Origin: Omphalotus guepiniiformis
Taxonomy: Eukaryota; Basidiomycota; Agaricomycetes; Agaricales; Omphalotaceae
Direction: 5' to 3'
Assembly: GCA_028554645.1 (NCBI GenBank)
Contig: JAQOOI010000079.1
Location: 372,001 to 436,000 of the forward strand
Length of the DNA stretch: 64,000 bases
Below, in pieces: positions 545 through 64,000 of the stretch; position 1 is the first letter of the stretch; each line of letters begins with the position of its first letter. The notes below the pieces were generated by a model that worked only from the letters and a program-made list of their open reading frames with translations, had not been told where the DNA came from and did not search any database. The translations under genes and the position numbers were made by a program.

Positions 545-3500
545 ATGGCCTATATAATTATGTTAATGGCACACTCCCTTCTGTTCCTCACGACTATGCC
601 TCCTGTGGAAGGGACAGAAGTCATCGAGTTGTTCAGCTCTGTCTGTGATATCGTTCCGTTCCTCCGTCCTGCCAAGGCAATCATTGATTTGATCATCGCG
701 GCAATCGAGAAAGTCGAGGACAATACCCATCAATGCAGCTACCTGTTACACAGATGTCTGAACTTGTACTTGCACGTTCACGGTGATTGCTGCGAGGGCT
801 TTATCACTGAAGACGCTTACTCTGCCGCTCTCTGTCAGCTCCGAGCGTAAGTCCGATATCTTTGCGTTGATGCAGATGTTTCTCATTCTATGCTATAGAT
901 CGCTGGAGAAAATACATCTCTGCGTGGTTGAGATATCTCGTAAAACACCCCTGCAGCGGTTATTCCAGCGTCAGGAAATTTCCGATACAATTCAAAATGC
1001 CCATAGGGATCTTGATGGATGTGTGGAATTGTTTCATGTACGTGGTACGCAACATGAATATATCCCCCGGTTTCATGATGTACACTTCGTAGGTGGATGC
1101 TACCACATCGCTAATCTTCGTTCTCGAGAAACACGAAGCTGCTCGTGTGAGGGATCAAGCACAACTGAATACTACTTTGATGCAACTGCTAAGAAATGAC
1201 GTTGACATTCTGACCAACTTGGATTTGAGAACAGATCAAATAATGGAAGCTATACGGGGTCTTCAGAATGTACGTGCTCAAGAATTGCATACAGGAAGCG
1301 AGTACTGAGCTGAACTCGAATCACTTGAACATAGACCCTTAAGAGGGGCAATACCGATAGCATACAAGAGAAGTTTGCTGAAGAAAGCCTTCAATCATTG
1401 CTTCGTGAAGGTCACAATGTACAGCCTCCATATGAATGGGCTGTATCCTCAATGGAGATACTTGTCGAAGGAGAGGTGCTAGGTTCTGGTGCTTTCGGTA
1501 CAGTTCATTGTGGGCGGTGGAATGGTTCCCGGGTGGCAGTGAAAAAGCTCGCCAGAGGTACTCCGCGCCAGGTACGTAGAAATATTTTAAAAAATTGGTT
1601 CTTGTTTCGAGTGCATCTTAATTGTACTACCAGGTGCTCGTTCAAGAGATTGAAATTTGGCGGAAAATGCAGCATCCACATATTGCTTCGTTCTTTCGCG
1701 CTTGCATTGACTCACATCCTCCTCTCATGCTTTCGGAGCTTTATGAATACGGCAATGTCATTCAGTATATCTTCTCACACAAGGAGTGTAATCGCTTGAG
1801 ATTAGTACGTGATATTGGTTTCTTCTGACAAGGCATTTGATTCACTGCTAGGCTGTGCCTCCATAGTGTTACCAGATATCACTGGGGATGCAATTTCTTC
1901 ATGCTCACAAGGTTATACATGGAGACCTGAAACCTGTACGTGTTTCTTCTGATCATGGTCGAAATTGTTTAGTTTATCTTAGCGAAGGCAAACGTCCTCA
2001 TTGACAACTCACACCAGGCCAGAATCACAGATTTTGGACTTTCTAGAATCAAGACCTCTTTAACGACCCAGACGTGCGCTGATACGAGTACACCTACTGT
2101 GACACGAGTCCCTGGAACTAAGGCATTCATGGCTCCAGAGAGGCTTCTACGTGGCAAGAATAATTTCAAGACAGATGTTTATGCATGGGCAATGAGTGCT
2201 TATCAGGTAAGCTCTCTTATTGTACGGTACAAATCATATGCTGAAGCCAGTTAGATCTTCTGCGATGACGCTCCTTTTCAACATCTGCCAGAAGAGTACC
2301 TTTGCGCTCGTGTTATAGATCACGGTTTAAGACCTGACCGACCTGAAGAACCCGAAATTACTCAAAGAGGCCTTACGGATGAGGTATGGCAGCTGCTACA
2401 ACGATGCTGGACGCAAGATTTTAGGCATAGGCCCGAGTTCCACCAGATATCTGATACACTCTCATCATTCGTTGATGATATATGCCTTGGTACACCTCAT
2501 ACACATGCACGGACTGATTCGGACCAAACATCGTTGGTTCCAAATACTGCGGACGTCTCAAGGATGGAGGGTTTAGTTGCAATCATGGAGCATTCAAATA
2601 GCCAAGTACTACTAGTACCATCTTTCAACCATGATACAACATCAGTTGCATCAGGTGAATACACCGCTGGCTTGTTAACTTCTCATTCTCACCTACTCAT
2701 TTAGGAGATCATGCACACGCAAAAGAACACTTGAAAACAAAGACAAAACGACCTTCAAGTTGGACACGCAGGCATGCAGCTAGTGAGTGTGTCATTTACT
2801 GCTCTCAGGGGTGAACAATGACAAATTACTTTCAGAATCGACAAATGGTTCATCGATTGCTTCCACTGAATTCGGGTCGTCTAAAGCAGAGACGGGAATA
2901 GAATTGTATGGACAGAACTCTAATAAGAGACTCAACATTACCGTCGTAGGTAGAGGTGGATGCGGCAAGGTCTGTAACAACCTATCCTTCCAGCACACCT
3001 TACTAATGTCTCTTAATAGACGAGTTTATTGACTAATTTTGCTATGAAAGCAAAACCGCGCGACGTACGACCTTTCGTTTCTCTTGGCTGTTCATCGCTA
3101 ACGCTCATCCAACAGTATGATCCCACAATTGAAGATCACATCAGTGCAGACATTAGTATTGCTGGCAGTCGCGTGTTGTTGGACCTGACAGATACGGCTG
3201 GTCAAGAAGAATACGCCACCTTACTTGACTTCTCCCTGCAACACGCTGATGTGGCTATCATAACATTTTCCATCGCAAACCAAGCTGGCCTTGAAGAAGT
3301 CTCGTTGAGGGTATGCATGCAACAGACGTGACTCTTAGTGCATATGAGATACTCACTCCCTTTCAGTTCATTCCACAATTCATACGGGTAAACAAGACCG
3401 CACCCATGATTATTGTAGGGTTGAAGTCGGATCTGCGCTCTGGTAACAAACATAGTGTGGATCGGGAAACTGTAAGGTCCCTTATTCAATGCATTTATTT

Positions 3501-3736
3501 TCAGTATCTTTTTGACCTGGGGACAACAGGCAGAGGCAGTAGCGAAGCAGTATGGTGCTCCCTATTTGGAATGTAGCGCTCTTACAGGAGAAGGTGTCCG
3601 TGAAGTCTTTGAGATGGCTACCAAGGTCGCAATGGATGCTATGGTAAAGAACAGGCAGCCACGAACACCGCCGCCGACTAGGACTACCCATTCAAGTCCA
3701 GGGATATGTTCTTCTCCTGGTTGTACCATCGGTTGA
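545..3736 (+). CDS. MLKL-like helical domain + TKL kinase + Rho/Ras-like GTPase fusion protein
   Basis: An intact 14-exon model joins in frame: 545-846, 899-1037, 1093-1269, 1335-1571, 1634-1804, 1867-1935, 1988-2206, 2255-2654, 2705-2782, 2809-2969, 3020-3064, 3116-3310, 3367-3471, 3530-3736, giving about 834 aa. Residues 1-206 are helical with a hydrophobic stretch (FLRPAKAIIDLIIAAIEKV) and resemble the MLKL/HeLo-type N-terminal bundle common in Agaricomycetes. Residues ~246-510 are a TKL kinase: glycine loop GSGAFG (256-261), VAVK Lys276, HGDLKP Asp362, DFG Asp380, APE 414-416, so probably catalytically active. Residues ~638-800 are a small GTPase: P-loop GRGGCGKTS (645-653), DTAGQE (692-697), LKSD instead of NKxD (750-753), ECSAL, and a Rho-like VREVFEMATK helix. 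The chain ends in CTIG, a possible prenylation CAAX box. The last intron is ambiguous: donor 3477 with acceptor 3504 adds 10 aa and also keeps frame. Inferred role: membrane-associated signalling or cell-death protein. The start could also be the ATG at 569 or 596. Confidence 0.85.
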
Positions 3737-4161: not shown

Positions 4162-4640
4162 TCAATTTAAAGGATCATAGTACCACTCCGGCTCCTTCTC
4201 CGTCTTCAACGCCTTCTTCAACCCCTCAATCGTCTCAGGTGTAGCAACTCCCTCCCCTCAGCACTCGCATTAGGCGAAACGTTATTGCGCGATACGGTTG
4301 TTCATTCACCACGGCCCTCATAAACATTGACAGTTTCCATACCCTCATTGCGCTGGATCTCAGCGCCAGAGTTACGCCAAATAAACAATTGTCTATGGGA
4401 GTGCCAGTGAAGCTATTTGAGGACGGATTACTACTGCGGACGAGACCGCTTTGCCTTGAGAAGAAGAGGTATTTTCATCTGAGAACGAGGAGGAGATTAA
4501 AAATGACTTGCGAGCTTTGGTACGTTCGACGTCCCGACGTACGCAGGATGGGCTCCTTATCTCATCTTCGGTAACCATTATGCCGTAAACTAGAAGTAGG
4601 TCGCCTTTGCGTTTGAGAGGAGTAGTTGAGTTAATTTCAT
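4162..4640 (-). pseudogene. Array copy 1 (MKLxxLPP family), frameshifted
   Basis: A decayed member of the tandem family whose best copy is at 9250-9744. The ATG at 4640 is kept, but one base is missing in the LPPLKRKGDL segment relative to its siblings, so the conserved N-terminal block continues in another frame (VYGIMVTEDEI). A further shift lies in the linker and another in the ITFSHNASAEG segment. It still ends with EPEWYYDPLN and a stop. The function of the family is unknown; this copy should not give a full-length product. Confidence 0.75.
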
Positions 4641-4819
4641 AGTTTTTGTGAACAGACAGCGTCAGAAGAGTCAGATATACTCTGGGGAGTCGCACTTAGA
4701 GGACGTGACAACATATTCCGCCTGGAGAGGTCTTGTGCCTGGGCTTCGCAGTAGATTCTTCAATATCGCCTTCGTCTGGTAACCCATCCCGCTTATCATC
4801 TGTCTCTTTCGAAGACATC

Positions 4820-5612: not shown

Positions 5613-6254
5613 CAAGAAAAAAGAAATAAATTAGGCTTTGGCCTTGGAGGTCTCGGTGGTGGTAGCAGAGAGAGTAGGGGTGCTCAATTCTAAAAGTTCA
5701 AACGGTTCAAACAGCTCAAGAGTTCAAACAGTTCATCAAGAGTGTGGCAAGTGTCGACCTTGCACAAACTTTTCCCTGATTCGCAGAGCAAAACGAAATT
5801 TCGGGATCTTCAAGGTACATACGGTAAACTGTATGTAAATGAGTGGCGTTTGAAGCTTCAACTCTTCGTATTCCACTTCAATTGCAGGCAGATGTCACAC
5901 TCGCTAACTCTAGTATGACCATCTCGTCAAGATCCTATTCCTGCACGTTTTACAGTGCCGATGACGAAATTTGAACAAATAGATTTTATCGAATGCAGGT
6001 TAAAGAACCCTAAGCGTTGTTGGATATTGAGTGGTATGGACAAACAACGGTAGCAAATTCAGAGCAACGACAGCATAGAAAGAATTCGTACGACGTAGAC
6101 TTCGCCCATCGGAGTATGATACAAGTTAAAGAGCCATAACATTCGCAAAACACGACACCAGAAATCAGAGATTCAGATATTCAAATGCGGCCTGAAGCTT
6201 GAAGCATCGGCTATGAGATGTAAAATCACGCAAAAGAAATCAAGAAACATACCT
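5613..6254. other. Spacer and 3' flank of array copy 2
   Basis: 5613-6000 holds no recognisable gene; 5690-5735 has a short imperfect repeat of 'gttcaaacag/ggttcaaacag'. From about 6020 to 6254 it is the conserved 3' flank of the array unit, matching the regions below copies 1, 5 and 9250-9744. Confidence 0.5.
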
Positions 6255-6754
6255 TTACCCTTCCAGCGGGTCATCCAACGACTGATACCACTCCGGCTCC
6301 CTCTCCGTCCTCAAAGCCTTCTTCAACCTCTCAATCGTCTCGGGTGGTGGCAACTCCCTCCCGTCATCACTCGAATTATGCGAGAAAGTAATTGCATAAT
6401 AAGAGCGCCCATTCTCCACGGCCCTCATAAAGATTGATCGTTTCCAAACCCTCCTTGCAGCAGATTTCAGTGTCATGATCACCGTGATTAAATGATCGTC
6501 TAAGCGAATGCCTGAAGACAAATCACGACCAGCTCCTGCGAGTCTATTTCTGTACGCCGGGTCAGCCATGCCTTGAGAAGAAGGTTATTTGTATCTGAGG
6601 AGAAGGAGAACAAGGACGACTTGCGAGCATTGTGACGTTCGATGGCCCTATTGTACGCAGGATGGGCTCTCATCTCCTCTGTGGTGAATATTATGCCGAA
6701 AACCAAAGGTAATTCGCCTTTACGCTTTAGAGGAGGTAATTGAGACAACTTCAT
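6255..6754 (-). CDS. Array copy 2 (MKLxxLPP family), uncharacterised small protein
   Basis: The first segment from the ATG at 6754 reads MKLSQLPPLKRKGELPLV and continues through FGIIFTTEEMRAHPAY. The second segment, 6255-6511, reads RLDDHLITVIMTLKSAARRV, then ITFSHNSSDDGRELPPPE and EREPEWYQSLDDPLEG before TAA. The two halves are in different frames. An intron with acceptor TCTTCAG at 6512 would join them; the likely donor next to CTCAAG at ~6573 is GC rather than GT and does not give the matching phase, so this copy may also be broken. A conserved N-terminal block, a Ser/Asp-rich variable linker and a C-terminal block with a PPPETIERLKKAL helix define the family. No known domain recognised. 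Confidence 0.55.
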
Positions 6755-7348
6755 GGTTTCTTCTGACGGACTCTGGGGGTAGATGATAAATGGTTTGTGA
6801 TGGGCGGTCTATTAAATAAATGGCCGAAAGTAAGTGTCACGTGATCCATTTGGCCACTTTTCAAATCCTTGTTCTTATTTTCATCGCTTTTTCGACTTCA
6901 AGTTCCTTCTTATTCCAACACTATACAAGAGAAGAACAAGAACGAAGAATGAGGCAACTGCTCATCTGACGGAGGAACAATAAGATCCACAGAGCTAAGG
7001 CTGTGACTTATTGTCTGAGTTTTGAATCTAATTGCCGTTCTTATTTAGAGGAACAATGGCCACGATGTATTTTGAACTAGAACTGCAGCCTTTTCGGACT
7101 TTGACTCGGAATGCATGACTCGCCACAATGCCCTGGACCCTGTAACAAGATAGCGCGTCGTGGCTATCCCTTGTTGGAGTAACTGAATCCCGAAAGAATG
7201 AGATTCGAAGCTCTTATTCTTGTCTCGATGTGTTATTGTTCATCAAGGAAAAAAGACCAAGCAAAGCCATACTACTTAAAGGCCGGATAGTTTCTCGTTG
7301 AGGGTACATCATTTCTCGACTCTCGACTATCCTTTACTGCTTGCACTG
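6755..7348. other. Divergent intergenic region between copy 2 and the PD-(D/E)XK-like gene
   Basis: Contains a TCACGTGA palindrome near 6838 (E-box-like), a small inverted repeat around 6968-7012 (ACAATAAG ... CTTATTGT), and a weak TATA-like ACTTAAAGG at ~7273, about 75 bases before the ATG at 7349. The region probably serves both flanking genes. Confidence 0.4.
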
Positions 7349-9249: not shown

Positions 9250-9744
9250 TCACTCCAAAGGATCGTCCAGTGAATAGTACCACTCCGGATCCTTCGTAGT
9301 CTTCAACGCTTTCTTCAACCTCTCAATCGTCTCGGGTGGGGGCAACACCATCCCCTCAGCACTCGCATTATGCGAAAACGTTATTGCGCGACACACTTCC
9401 TCATTCACCACCGCCCTCATAAACATTGACGGTTTCCATACCCTCCTTGCGCTAGATTTCAGCGCCCGAGTTACGCCATATAAACAATTGTCTATGGGAG
9501 TGCCAGTGCCTGAACGCATTTGGGGACGGGTTGCTGCGAGCGGGTGCGCTTTGACTTGAGAAAAGAAGATATCTTCATCTGAGGACGAGGAGGAGAACTT
9601 GAAAGAGGACTTACGAGCTTTGACACGATTGACCTCCTTCTTGTACACGGGATGGGCTCTGATCTCATCTTCGGTAAATACTATCCCGAAAACCAGAGGT
9701 AGATCGCCTTTACGCTGAATAGGAGGTAATTCAGACAACTTCAT
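9250..9744 (-). CDS. Array copy 5: best intact member of the MKLxxLPP family
   Basis: A single open frame of 164 aa with no stop. The start at 9744 matches the siblings' MKL(S/T)xLPP start. Layout: residues 1-~33 conserved (LPPIQRKGDLPLVFGIVF, then TEDEIRAHP); ~34-75 a variable Lys/Ser/Asp-rich linker containing SSSSSDED; ~80-164 the second conserved block with RALKSSARRVWKPSMFMR, AITFSHNASAEG, PPPETIERLKKAL and a DPEWYYSLDDP end. No signal peptide, membrane segment or known domain is recognised; it is probably a soluble cytoplasmic or nuclear protein. Other copies need an intron in the linker, so splicing here is possible. The upstream 150 bases carry the shared CACGTGAC block. Function unknown. 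Confidence 0.7.
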   Translation of the reverse strand: MKLSELPPIQRKGDLPLVFGIVFTEDEIRAHPVYKKEVNRVKARKSSFKFSSSSSDEDIFFSQVKAHPLAATRPQMRSGTGTPIDNCLYGVTRALKSSARRVWKPSMFMRAVVNEEVCRAITFSHNASAEGMVLPPPETIERLKKALKTTKDPEWYYSLDDPLE

Positions 9745-10497
9745 GTTTCTGTAAGCGCCGAACGGATAGCAACGAAAGAAAACTTTAGCAAGTTTTTGAA
9801 CGACGAGTCTCAGTTTAAGTTTGGTGGCTTGTTGGTGGCTCAATTTCACGACGCGAAAACGAGCACGTGACGTGAATGCAGCCGAAGCCGAATTCCCTGC
9901 GTCAAAAATCCGAAGCATAACGAGCGTAACGATCATGATCACGAATCAGAATAAATAGAAGATAACGCAAGACGATGGATTCTACAATTTTGTTTCCGAA
10001 TTCTGGAATGGGTAACACCTTGGATCTATCTGGTACGATGACTCGGAGAGTACGACAGTATGTTGAAATTCAATAGCACCATATGCATTGCGAAGAAAGG
10101 GAGTCTAGGACGTGCTTGCACATTTGTCATGGCCCTGTAGTGAAGCATGATTTAAGAAGAAAATACACTCATAGTCGGCGGTCGCGCTCTGCTCAGCAGC
10201 GAGCTCGTCTATGATAATGTTCCACCCAACCAAGTTTAACAATGGTCCTGAGGTATATTCGATACTGAGTAGATACAGACAAAGAACGGTAAGCGGATTC
10301 AAAGCAACGAGAGCATATAAAGAATTCGTACGACGACGTGGATTTCGCGGCGCGTCGGGGTCATGATACAAGATAAAGAGTCATAACAATCGTAAAACAC
10401 GACTCTTATACGGGGTCCAGGATCATTCAAATGCAACCTGAAGCATCGATTATGAGATGTACGATTATAATGTCAGAAAAAATCAAGAAACATGCCT
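9745..10497. other. Upstream region of copy 5 and 3' flank of copy 6
   Basis: 9745-9890 is the conserved upstream block, with ACGACGCGAAAACGAGCACG followed by TGACGTGAA. 9930-9995 ('cacgaatcagaata' ... 'cgcaag') matches the region near 16420-16460 upstream of copy 7. 10250-10497 is the conserved 3' flank. No gene is seen between. Confidence 0.5.
9846..9880 (-). promoter_or_regulatory. Shared upstream block with CACGTGAC core (copy 5)
   Basis: The string ACGACGCGAAAACGAGCACG, continuing into TGACGTGAA, lies about 105 bases upstream of the copy-5 ATG. It recurs upstream of copy 7 (15533-15565) and of the unrelated gene at 26 kb (27017-27050). The core CACGTGAC is an E-box/bHLH or bZIP type site. 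Conservation between duplicated flanks alone does not prove function. Confidence 0.45.
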
Positions 10498-11455: not shown

Positions 11456-12060
11456 TATACACTCTGTACACCTGTATACACCATGTATACACCCTGTCAC
11501 ATGTGTATACACCTGTATACCACCCATATACACCCTGTACACCTGTATACACACTGTCTGTATACAGGGTGACAGATGTACAGGGTGTATACAGGTATAC
11601 AGGATGACATGTATACAGGATGTATACAGAGTGTATACAGGGTGGATACAGGGTGGATACAGGGTGAATACAGGGTGTATACAGGGTGTATACAGGATGC
11701 ATACAGGGTGTATACAGGGTGTGTACAGGGTCAGGCTGGATACAGAGTGTATACAGAGTGTATACAGGATGTATACAGGGTGCATACAGAGTGGATACAG
11801 GGTGGATACAGAGTGTATACAGAGTGCATACAGGGTGGATACAGGGTGGATACAGGGTGGATACAGAGTGCATACAGGGTGGATACAGAGTGCAATACAG
11901 AGTGCATACAGAGTGCATACAGAGTGCATACAGGGTGTATACAGGGTGTATACAGGGTGGTACACGGTGTATACAGAGTGTATACAGGTATACAGGGTGA
12001 CATGTATACAGTGTGTATACAGAGTGTATATGGGTGTATACCTTGTCTGTATATACCTCA
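11456..12060. repeat. Minisatellite block 1, 11-bp unit with an internal orientation switch
   Basis: Tandem variants of TATACAGGGTG (also GGATACAGGGT, GCATACAGAGT) fill ~11562-12045. The first ~105 bases (11456-11560) are the same unit inverted (TGTATACACCCTG), so the array flips orientation near 11560. An 11-bp unit stays open in all frames as an 11-residue repeat, so the long open frames here on both strands are not genes. Confidence 0.9.
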
Positions 12061-21179: not shown

Positions 21180-22275
21180 TTACGGGCATAGGCACTGTTC
21201 ATATTCGCGTACGCGATCTGAACAAAAACACTCGAGTTCTTAAACTCGATGAGGTTCATTATCTTCAAGGGACAGACAGGCTTTTCTCGTTGAATAAATA
21301 TCAACGATATCTTCGTAAAGAAGATCGCTTATCTGTATATGATACCAATGGTAACATGCTGCTCATGGGATTTCCCAGTGAGAACCACAACGGGTTATTC
21401 ACTGTCGAGACCGAAAATAGTGCATCCCGAGCATGCTCACGTCATTAAACCACAACAACAAATTCCTTTACCATTTGGCACAACAGATTTGCCCATGCGT
21501 CATCAGATGTATTGCGACATCTACCTAATTCAGTTCAAGGTTTCCCAGGCTCAATAAAGCCGATCAATCTTTCCATGTGTGACGGTTGTAATAAAGGGAA
21601 AGAAACCGGCAAAATCCTATCCCGCAACCGAGAAGCCACGTAAATCGGAACCTTTACATCTTGTACATGCGGACCTCATGGAGTTCCCTGTACGTTCCTA
21701 TCACGGCTACAAATATATCGTCACCTTTCTAGACGATCATTCTTCTTACGCACACCCTATCCTTCTAAAGAACAAGTCTCCTGACACATTGCTAGCCTTT
21801 AAATACTATAAAGCGCTGCATGAGAAGGAAACTGGAAAGAAGATCAAGATATTACGAGTAGATCAAGGGACAGAATTCCTGAATGAACCATTCCGTACTT
21901 ACCTCAAAGAGGAAGGAATCCATCTTCAGTTCTCCACCGCTTATGTTCATCAACAAAATGGACGAGCCGAGCGCGTGAATAGAAGTTTTGGAAGACAAAT
22001 CGGAAGCAATGCGACAGCATGCTTGCCTTCCGGAGTCTTGGTGGCAATTCTCAGTACTTGCGGCTTCTCACGTTCGAAACCGCAGTCCCTCTCGTATCAT
22101 TAATTGGAAAACACCTGTAGAACTTTTCTATAACAAGAAACCGGATGTTTCTTACTTCCGCACCTTTGGGTCAGCTGCCTACGTTCATATTACAAGAGAC
22201 GAACGTAACCGTCGTAAACTGACAGCTAAGGCGGAATTTGATGACTATGATTGGTTACTCCGATCATTCTAAAGC
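21180..22275 (+). pseudogene. Retrotransposon integrase (GAG-pre-integrase and catalytic core)
   Basis: GAG-pre-integrase zinc residues WHNRFAH ... MCDGCNKGKETGK span ~21475-21610. The core (21640-22030) has HADLMEF, VDQGTEFLNE and NGRAERVNRS, which supply the D, D and E of the catalytic triad, then SWWQFSVLAASHVRNRSPS and TPVELFYNKKPDVSYFRTFG. At least two frame breaks occur (~21440 and ~22030). A Pro/Ser-rich linker (22270-22840) follows. Confidence 0.85.
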
Positions 22276-23039
22276 ATGGATATTCATGACGAAAGACAAC
22301 AAAGTGAAGGTCTCACCAGACGCTTCCTTTGATGAAACACGGTTCCCACGTTGTAAATGCGAACCTAAAATTGTAACTACTCCCGAGAACATCCCCGATC
22401 TAACGACATCAGATGGTACTCCCGAATTCGATGATGGCTTCAATCCTACCGGACCCTCATCAGGTCGTCCCGATCATCCGAGAAGTAGAAGTTCTTCTCC
22501 GATCGAGGATTTAGAGTATGTGGATTCTGCAGATCCAGACTCACACGGTAGTTCTTCTAAACCTAAAAAGGAAGTAAAGACAGAGCTTCCACCGAGTAGC
22601 ACGGTACCTCCAACACGAGAACGTCGTACACGTCGAGGAGTGACACCACCTCCTCTACCGACTGTACCACCTCGTTCTCCTTTACGGTCTCCTCATGAGA
22701 CACTACCTGCTCCTCCTATAGAACCTCCTGCTCAACAAGCGCGTCTCCGCCCTCGACGTGCTGTGAGGCCTCCTCTACGTGAAGGCAACGTATATGGTGA
22801 ACGTAGTGACCCTATTCAGTCAGAAACAGATGACTGAGCGACAATTTCACCGTCGCACACATGCCATTGATACCTTACGGCGTCAGGGCAATTTGGGTTC
22901 ACGTACTACACCGGATCCTTCCCAATCTGGACCATCGGATGAGACTGCGCTCGCGAAGCCTCTCTATCCAGATGTGCTCAAGAAGGGGAGTTGCTTACGT
23001 TGCACACCTTATGAACCAATCGGAAATCCCAGAAAGTGA

Positions 23040-63129: not shown

Positions 63130-64000
63130 ATGTCGAGTGGCTCGATCTACAACGTGAGTATTGGCGGAGTTTTGGGCTGATCCCCGGCGGCACGAGGCTA
63201 ACTTTTCTCTTTCAACCATGTCCCAGCATCGCAGCCTCCAGCCGACTGGTCCTCCCTCCGCTCCTGGTGGCCCACAGCTCAGCCTCACTCGTCTTAATGA
63301 TTCTTTTGATGCTATTAGAAACGAATTTGATGTTCTTGCTAATGAGGTGTCGGTTGTGCGGAGCCAACGCGATGACTATGAGAACAAAGGTGAGTTTTAC
63401 CTCCTTCTTTCTCCTCGATATGGTAATATATCTATCGTAAAACTTTTTTTCTCAGTAGGCTCGCAAATTAACGAGCTCAATATCATCCGTCAATCCCTGT
63501 ACGACCTTGAGGCACAGCATGGAAAAGTTCGCCAACAGTACGAGGAGGAGCTAGCGCGCCTGCGCGCGGAAATCCATGCTTTGCGCCAGGGTGGTCTTCC
63601 TTCTGGTGCACCACATTCTGCGGTCGTTGGTCCCGCCTCTGCAGGCCCACCATCCGCAATATCAGGCAGTGGTGGCGTACCTCCTTTCAACGACCCATAT
63701 TTCAGCCGTGATCGCGATAGGGATCGGGAGCGCGAAGCGAGGGAGAGGGACAGAGATCGCGCTGAGCGTATTGAGAGAGAAAGGGAGCGAGAACGCGACT
63801 CTATGAGGGATCGTGACAGAGATCGTCCTGTGGACACACGGGATCCAAAAAGATTGAAGGCAGAGCGCATTAAAACGGATCGCCCTGGTACTTGGTTCTC
63901 CTCTTGTTGTTCCATCTTGGCCTTACATCTTTTTTTTCATTAGATCTGTTCAGCCCAAATACTATGCCTAAACTTCCACCTCCCGGATCAGGTGCCGGCC
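63130..64000 (+). CDS. TUP1: Tup1-type transcriptional corepressor, N-terminal part (truncated by window end)
   Basis: Four exons visible (63130-63153, 63227-63389, 63456-63887, 63944 onward), in phase. After MSSGSIYNHRSLQPTG, the Tup N-terminal tetramerisation helix reads LTRLNDSFDAIRNEFDVLAN, then RSQRDDYENKV, QINELNIIRQSLYDLEAQHG and YEEELARLRAEIHALRQG. Then come an Ala/Pro/Gly linker and a striking Arg-Asp/Arg-Glu repeat (SRDRDRDREREARERDRD) before KRLKAERIKTDRPG. The WD40 propeller expected downstream is outside the window. Tup1 with Ssn6/Cyc8 represses many genes in the nucleus. The RD/RE repeat is unusual for yeast Tup1 but of a kind seen in basidiomycete proteins. Confidence 0.88.

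Follow-up and report, generated by a model that had tools for sequence, protein, structure and literature searches.

A fungal gene model joining an apparent MLKL-like helical bundle, a protein kinase and a Ras/Rho-like GTPase in one predicted protein

Helical bundles of the MLKL type occur under several known forms of control: in animals an upstream kinase releases them, in plants and fungi they are fused to a kinase, and in fungi they are also triggered via NLRs and amyloids. In animal MLKL an N-terminal four-helix bundle is followed by a helical brace and by a kinase fold, which is that of a pseudokinase and with which the chain ends. Here we describe a gene model within a stretch of 64,000 nucleotides (hereafter the window; bases 372,001-436,000 of contig C78, JAQOOI010000079.1, in the 42.5 Mb assembly GCA_028554645.1) of the agaric Omphalotus guepiniiformis, in which a helical bundle of apparent MLKL type, a kinase and a GTPase of Ras/Rho character are predicted to form one protein. 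Bundle, brace and kinase stand in the same order as in MLKL, and the N-terminal part is matched to MLKL by a profile search of the PDB. Unlike MLKL, the kinase keeps K259, E273, D345 and DFG, and it is followed by a linker and a GTPase with a CaaX-like tail; identity to MLKL is remote.

Roco proteins of the LRRK2 type combine a Ras-like GTPase and a RAF-like kinase in one chain, in the order ROC-COR-kinase. In the protein described here, however, the kinase precedes the GTPase and the chain has a lipid-tail-like end; no COR match was obtained with Pfam at an expectation value (E) of 1 or below, and no ROC-COR tandem lies N-terminal to the kinase. In N-Ras and H-Ras a cysteine lies upstream of the C-terminal CaaX box. 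As in Ras and Rho GTPases, G1, G2, G3 and G5 are present, together with a CaaX-like box and an upstream cysteine, but unlike them the GTPase is the C-terminal domain of a large protein, has LKSD as its G4 and lacks the Rho insert.

The N-terminal half can be compared with wheat Pm13, a protein of 476 amino acids that confers mildew resistance and in which an MLKL_NTD is fused to a C-terminal kinase with all key catalytic residues; the available part of the source mentions no GTPase (PMC10951266). Basidiomycete MLKL-like (BaMLKL) domains have an extra N-terminal helix and a short one between the third and the fourth (PMC9815663, available in part), an order that a low-confidence model of an ortholog of our protein would fit, but they are described as N-termini of NLRs, whereas the domain discussed here is N-terminal to a kinase and a GTPase. 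For fungi, PMC12881547 (in the part available) mentions kinase and pseudokinase proteins that contain HELL domains. The combination of an MLKL-like bundle with a kinase is already known from animals and plants (Pm13) and mentioned for fungi (PMC10951266, PMC12881547, both in the parts available), and the new part is the GTPase with its tail. A fusion of bundle, kinase and GTPase was not found in the literature searched, and the word 'GTPase' is absent from the main text of PMC9815663, PMC12881547 and PMC10197012. If a small GTPase belongs to the same polypeptide, control would follow a different principle, namely nucleotide-timed, lipid-anchored activation, and the protein would offer a compact natural system in which a GTPase, a TKL kinase and a membrane-acting bundle could be tested as one protein.

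Gene model, paralog and relatives

Bases 545-3736 of the forward strand contain 14 exons, separated by GT..AG introns of 48-65 nucleotides and joined in a single open frame, in line with an earlier sequence-only reading that had described 14 exons joining in phase. The length of about 834 amino acids given there has to be corrected. Translation from the ATG at 545 yields 825 amino acids, and the start most likely lies at 596, predicting a protein of 808 amino acids, because two homologs have their annotated start at the equivalent of MPPVEG(TE) and because, in a paralog described below, the ATG equivalent to 545 opens a frame that runs into a TAG directly upstream of the MPPVEG ATG. Residue numbers refer to the 808-residue chain unless the 825-residue query is named. 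The whole coding region (596..3736, forward strand, stop included) consists of exons 1-7 at 596-846, 899-1037, 1093-1269, 1335-1571, 1634-1804, 1867-1935 and 1988-2206, and exons 8-14 at 2255-2654, 2705-2782, 2836-2969, 3020-3064, 3116-3310, 3367-3471 and 3530-3736. The window copy is free of any broken frame or splice site.

A second, inverted copy of the gene lies at 442,530-445,804 on the minus strand of the same contig (L029). All 13 introns are kept in the same places with GT..AG borders. Intron lengths differ between the copies in 10 of 13 cases, two of them by a multiple of three, and exon lengths in 6 of 14, five of them by a multiple of three; the exception is a 73-nucleotide deletion in exon 7 of the paralog, causing a frameshift in the kinase activation loop. 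Exons 8-14 of the paralog, with the GTPase and a tail ending in CIIS, form one open frame. The ratio of nonsynonymous to synonymous substitution rates (dN/dS) was calculated between window copy and paralog over 765 of the 808 codons and is an average over both copies. It was lowest, 0.07, in residues 1-206, which makes the N-terminal domain the slowest-evolving part, and reached 0.10 and 0.15 in two parts of the kinase region, 0.29 in the GTPase, 0.74 in the linker and 0.99 in the tail (15 codons), while dS was 0.27-0.28 in bundle, kinase and GTPase domains. All three domains are under purifying selection.

The fast-evolving linker between kinase and GTPase comprises residues 491-608 (2462..2918, forward strand), and its length changes are multiples of three. 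The open frame through this region is not a product of chance, because composition shuffles of the 118 linker codons of the window copy remained open in 14 of 20,000 cases and those of a 182-codon stretch of the paralog in 1 of 20,000. Exon 8 encodes the end of the kinase together with slightly more than half of the linker. Between exon 8 and the P-loop of the GTPase the window copy has no in-frame ATG; the paralog has one in-frame methionine in exon 10, upstream of its P-loop.

In Tetrapyrgos nigripes the order bundle-kinase-GTPase recurs in one annotated protein of 774 amino acids (P0002). HGDLKP, part of the bundle and a CaaX box of any kind are missing from this model, probably through mis-annotation. 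The gene models from Galerina (P0001) and Stygiomarasmius (P0028) do not include a GTPase, so that the domain is annotated in one of the three close foreign relatives, all of which belong to the Agaricales. One chain with three parts, as the sequence-only reading had proposed, is nevertheless supported by the continuous frame, the Pfam and profile matches detailed below, the paralog and the T. nigripes protein.

Two other fungal proteins were noted. P0023 from Nowakowskiella sp. JEL0078 (895 amino acids, partial) carries a Rho-like GTPase part together with a TIR domain and a kinase on the same polypeptide; it is another fusion of GTPase, immune domain and kinase in a different order. P0006 from Arthrobotrys flagrans (638 amino acids), which bears the source name 'Fungal N-terminal domain-containing', has a Rho-like GTPase at its end, and at E ≤ 0.01 its N-terminus matched no helical domain of Pfam.

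Domains of the predicted protein

The putative MLKL/HeLo-like helical bundle and brace occupy residues 1-189, encoded by exons 1-3 (596..1269, forward strand). In a Pfam scan of the window protein the N-terminus matched no family, and neither the full 825-residue query nor a 241-residue window query gave an MLKL_N match at E ≤ 1. A profile (A6) built from the window N-terminus and three homologs was searched against 177,635 distinct PDB sequences, and the six best rows were all MLKL (E 0.0013-0.029). The best alignment spans residues 32-185 and therefore bundle as well as brace, residue 185 being paired with position 177 of the MLKL chain. With two bridging sequences added to the profile, MLKL in the PDB was reached at E 1.7e-8. 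Sub-threshold matches to Pfam MLKL_N occur in the same register in four family members, with E values of 0.042 for window residues 1-130, 0.011 for Galerina P0001 (0.0045 for its N-terminal part alone), 0.0029 for Tetrapyrgos P0002 and 0.075 for the paralog, where an unrelated family scored better (0.052). Using hhalign, the N-terminal profile matched an MLKL_N protein of the same genome with 79% (E 1.6e-5) and Pholiota P0030 with 90% (E 1.5e-6). As a separate observation, a six-frame search of the assembly, which missed the window gene, returned a sole MLKL_N match (6.9e-8) at L031 (C13:211,576-211,923, minus strand), a long open frame whose C-terminal part differs from the window protein.

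A structure model of the Galerina ortholog, of low confidence (predicted local distance difference test, pLDDT, 67; predicted template modelling score, pTM, 0.39), contains predicted helices at 6-17, 21-39, 44-67, 74-95, 99-104 and 106-170, and in the brace region at 175-190 and 196-211. At this confidence, the helix order fits that of BaMLKL, with its extra N-terminal helix hG and the short hM between h3 and h4. A fold search agrees with an MLKL-type N-terminus, though it is not decisive. The N-terminus thus appears to be a distant relative of the MLKL bundle, followed by an MLKL-type brace. The sequence-only reading had suggested an MLKL-like N-terminus, to be compared with MLKL folds, and the profile search, which puts MLKL first, lends support to this assignment, as do the MLKL_N matches in four members.

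The RAF-like kinase of TKL/TK type extends over residues ~235-490 (1470..2461, forward strand) and matches Pfam PK_Tyr_Ser-Thr with E 2.1e-44. When Galerina P0001 was compared with the PDB, RAF kinases made up most of the best 60 of 267 matches, the top row being an EGFR chain. The G-loop (GSGAFG), K259, E273, HGDLKPAN with D345, DFG (363-365) and APE (397-399) were identified by alignment, and the kinase looks catalytically complete because K259, E273, D345, DFG and APE are kept. Its activation loop is rich in Thr and Ser. The kinase domain proposed from the sequence alone is supported; the FslK group of fungi-specific TK-like kinases is a lead for the kinship of the domain (PMC3937382, available in part).

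The Ras-superfamily small GTPase comprises residues 609-780 (2919..3649, forward strand). Pfam Ras matches the window protein with E 1.5e-38, and Roc matches the same domain more weakly (2.1e-12). The Pfam matches identify the kinase and the GTPase without ambiguity. The P-loop GRGGCGKT (619-626), T644 within YDPTIED, DTAGQE (666-671) and SAL (756-758) leave G1, G2, G3 and G5 intact; G4 departs from the usual N/TKxD and reads LKSD (724-727). The domain also has residues that correspond to Gly12, Gly13 and Gln61 of Ras. The best PDB match is Rho1 (E 4.4e-31), and identity amounts to 37% with Mortierella Rho1 versus 28% with Cytospora Ras. In the alignment with Rho1 sequences a gap of about 10 residues marks the absence of the Rho insert between G4 and G5, and switch I (YDPTIED) is Ras-like. 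Hence, of the Rho/Ras-like character claimed earlier, membership of the Ras superfamily holds, and the predicted domain scores better against Rho although it lacks the insert typical of that subfamily. Elsewhere in the genome, three loci on contigs C55, C39 and C61 (L004, L005 and L006) are 96.6-99.6% identical over ~3.4 kb. Each contains a reading frame for a Ras-type GTPase, and they represent either multi-copy GTPase genes of recent origin or duplicates in the assembly.

The C-terminal tail (3650..3733, forward strand) reads C-SSPG-CTIG in the window copy, with the CaaX-like box at 3722-3733, and aligns with C-SSPGG-CIIS in the paralog. The chain thus ends in CTIG, in agreement with the sequence-only reading. 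We take CTIG to be a poor CaaX box because of its glycine in the X position, going by the specificity rules, and CIIS presumably fits a farnesylation box. A further cysteine, five residues before that of the CaaX-like box, is reminiscent of the cysteine that is palmitoylated in N-Ras and H-Ras. A lipid anchor is thus likely to be ancestral, since CIIS fits the box, and is uncertain for the window copy with its poor CTIG; the anchor of the sequence-only reading stays plausible through the paralog, and CTIG alone makes a weak case for it.

Possible function and competing readings

From the features computed here, namely the frame, the domain identities (by distant homology at the N-terminus), the motifs (with the departing G4) and the purifying selection, we infer with reservation that the protein could quite possibly be a self-contained, GTP-gated, lipid-anchored executioner of necroptosis-like death or defence. 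In the resting state the kinase and the brace would restrain the bundle, as in MLKL, whose bundle is restrained by the kinase fold and freed by phosphorylation (PMC12881547; PMC11476962; both available in part). The GTPase, probably lipidated at the tail, would bring the protein to the membrane and, when GTP-bound, would gather copies, so that the kinases could phosphorylate each other's Thr/Ser-rich activation loop. RAF kinases are activated at membranes by Ras-GTP, and such a step would amount to a Ras-to-RAF relay in cis. Trans-phosphorylation would then free the bundle, which would oligomerise and damage the membrane, and GTP hydrolysis, with the Gly12, Gly13 and Gln61 equivalents in place, would reset the switch. 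In its boldest form the proposal is a necroptosis executioner that carries a Ras switch of its own, with anchor, GTP clock, kinase and membrane-breaking bundle making up a Ras-to-RAF-to-MLKL pathway in a single chain; in this form it seems rather unlikely. Three findings weigh against an executioner: the weak CaaX box of the window copy, the frameshift in the kinase activation loop of the paralog, and the two of three close foreign relatives modelled without a GTPase.

The main alternative, possible if doubtful, is a signalling kinase tethered to the membrane rather than a killer, in which the GTPase both places and switches the TKL kinase in a Ras-RAF-like relay within one chain. The bundle would serve only to oligomerise the protein or to bind lipids, and hyphal growth, fusion and development are examples of processes in which such a kinase might act. 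The intact-looking kinase and GTPase motifs and the presence of RAF among the nearest solved kinases are consistent with such a role, and so is the lack of any immune-type gene among the 20 neighbouring open reading frames scanned with Pfam. In addition, Agaricomycetes have an expanded set of fungi-specific TK-like kinases, to which a role in development is ascribed (PMC3937382, in the part available). However, it is the N-terminal domain that evolves most slowly, and its apparent superfamily has several members that were tested as cell-death inducers, according to the available portions of PMC12881547 and PMC10951266.

Improbable, in our view, is a decaying or dispensable gene pair, in which a gene duplicated within a repeat-rich region has lost its frame in one copy and retains only a worn CaaX box in the other. 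The 73-nucleotide deletion in the paralog, the difference between CTIG and CIIS, the tail dN/dS and the repeats flanking the window gene would fit decay, but the window copy is unbroken in frame and splice sites, and dN/dS remains at 0.07-0.29 across the three domains. Least credible of all is a separate MLKL-like kinase gene with a neighbouring small GTPase gene, merged by the reading of exons: the Galerina and Stygiomarasmius models, the exon 10 methionine of the paralog and the fact that retention of intron 8 would end the chain after the kinase (frame 2255-2704) point that way, against which stand the sharing of exon 8 by kinase end and linker, the missing ATG before the window P-loop, a linker that is open and in frame in both copies, and the single annotated protein of T. 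nigripes.

Surroundings of the gene

A dispersed repeat of ~0.5 kb flanks the gene on either side, at 4177-4649, 6200-6766 and 9274-9752 of the window and, upstream of the gene, at positions 4053-4618 of L030, the upstream copy being 97% identical to the one at 6200-6766. At 11456-11999 there is a dense tandem array that matches itself on both strands. Farther along the window, Pfam identified a Peptidase C13 (53254-53928, minus strand) and a Tup N-terminal domain (63158-63940, forward strand), and a retroelement polymerase fragment was detected below its Pfam cut-off at 22223-22834 (forward strand).
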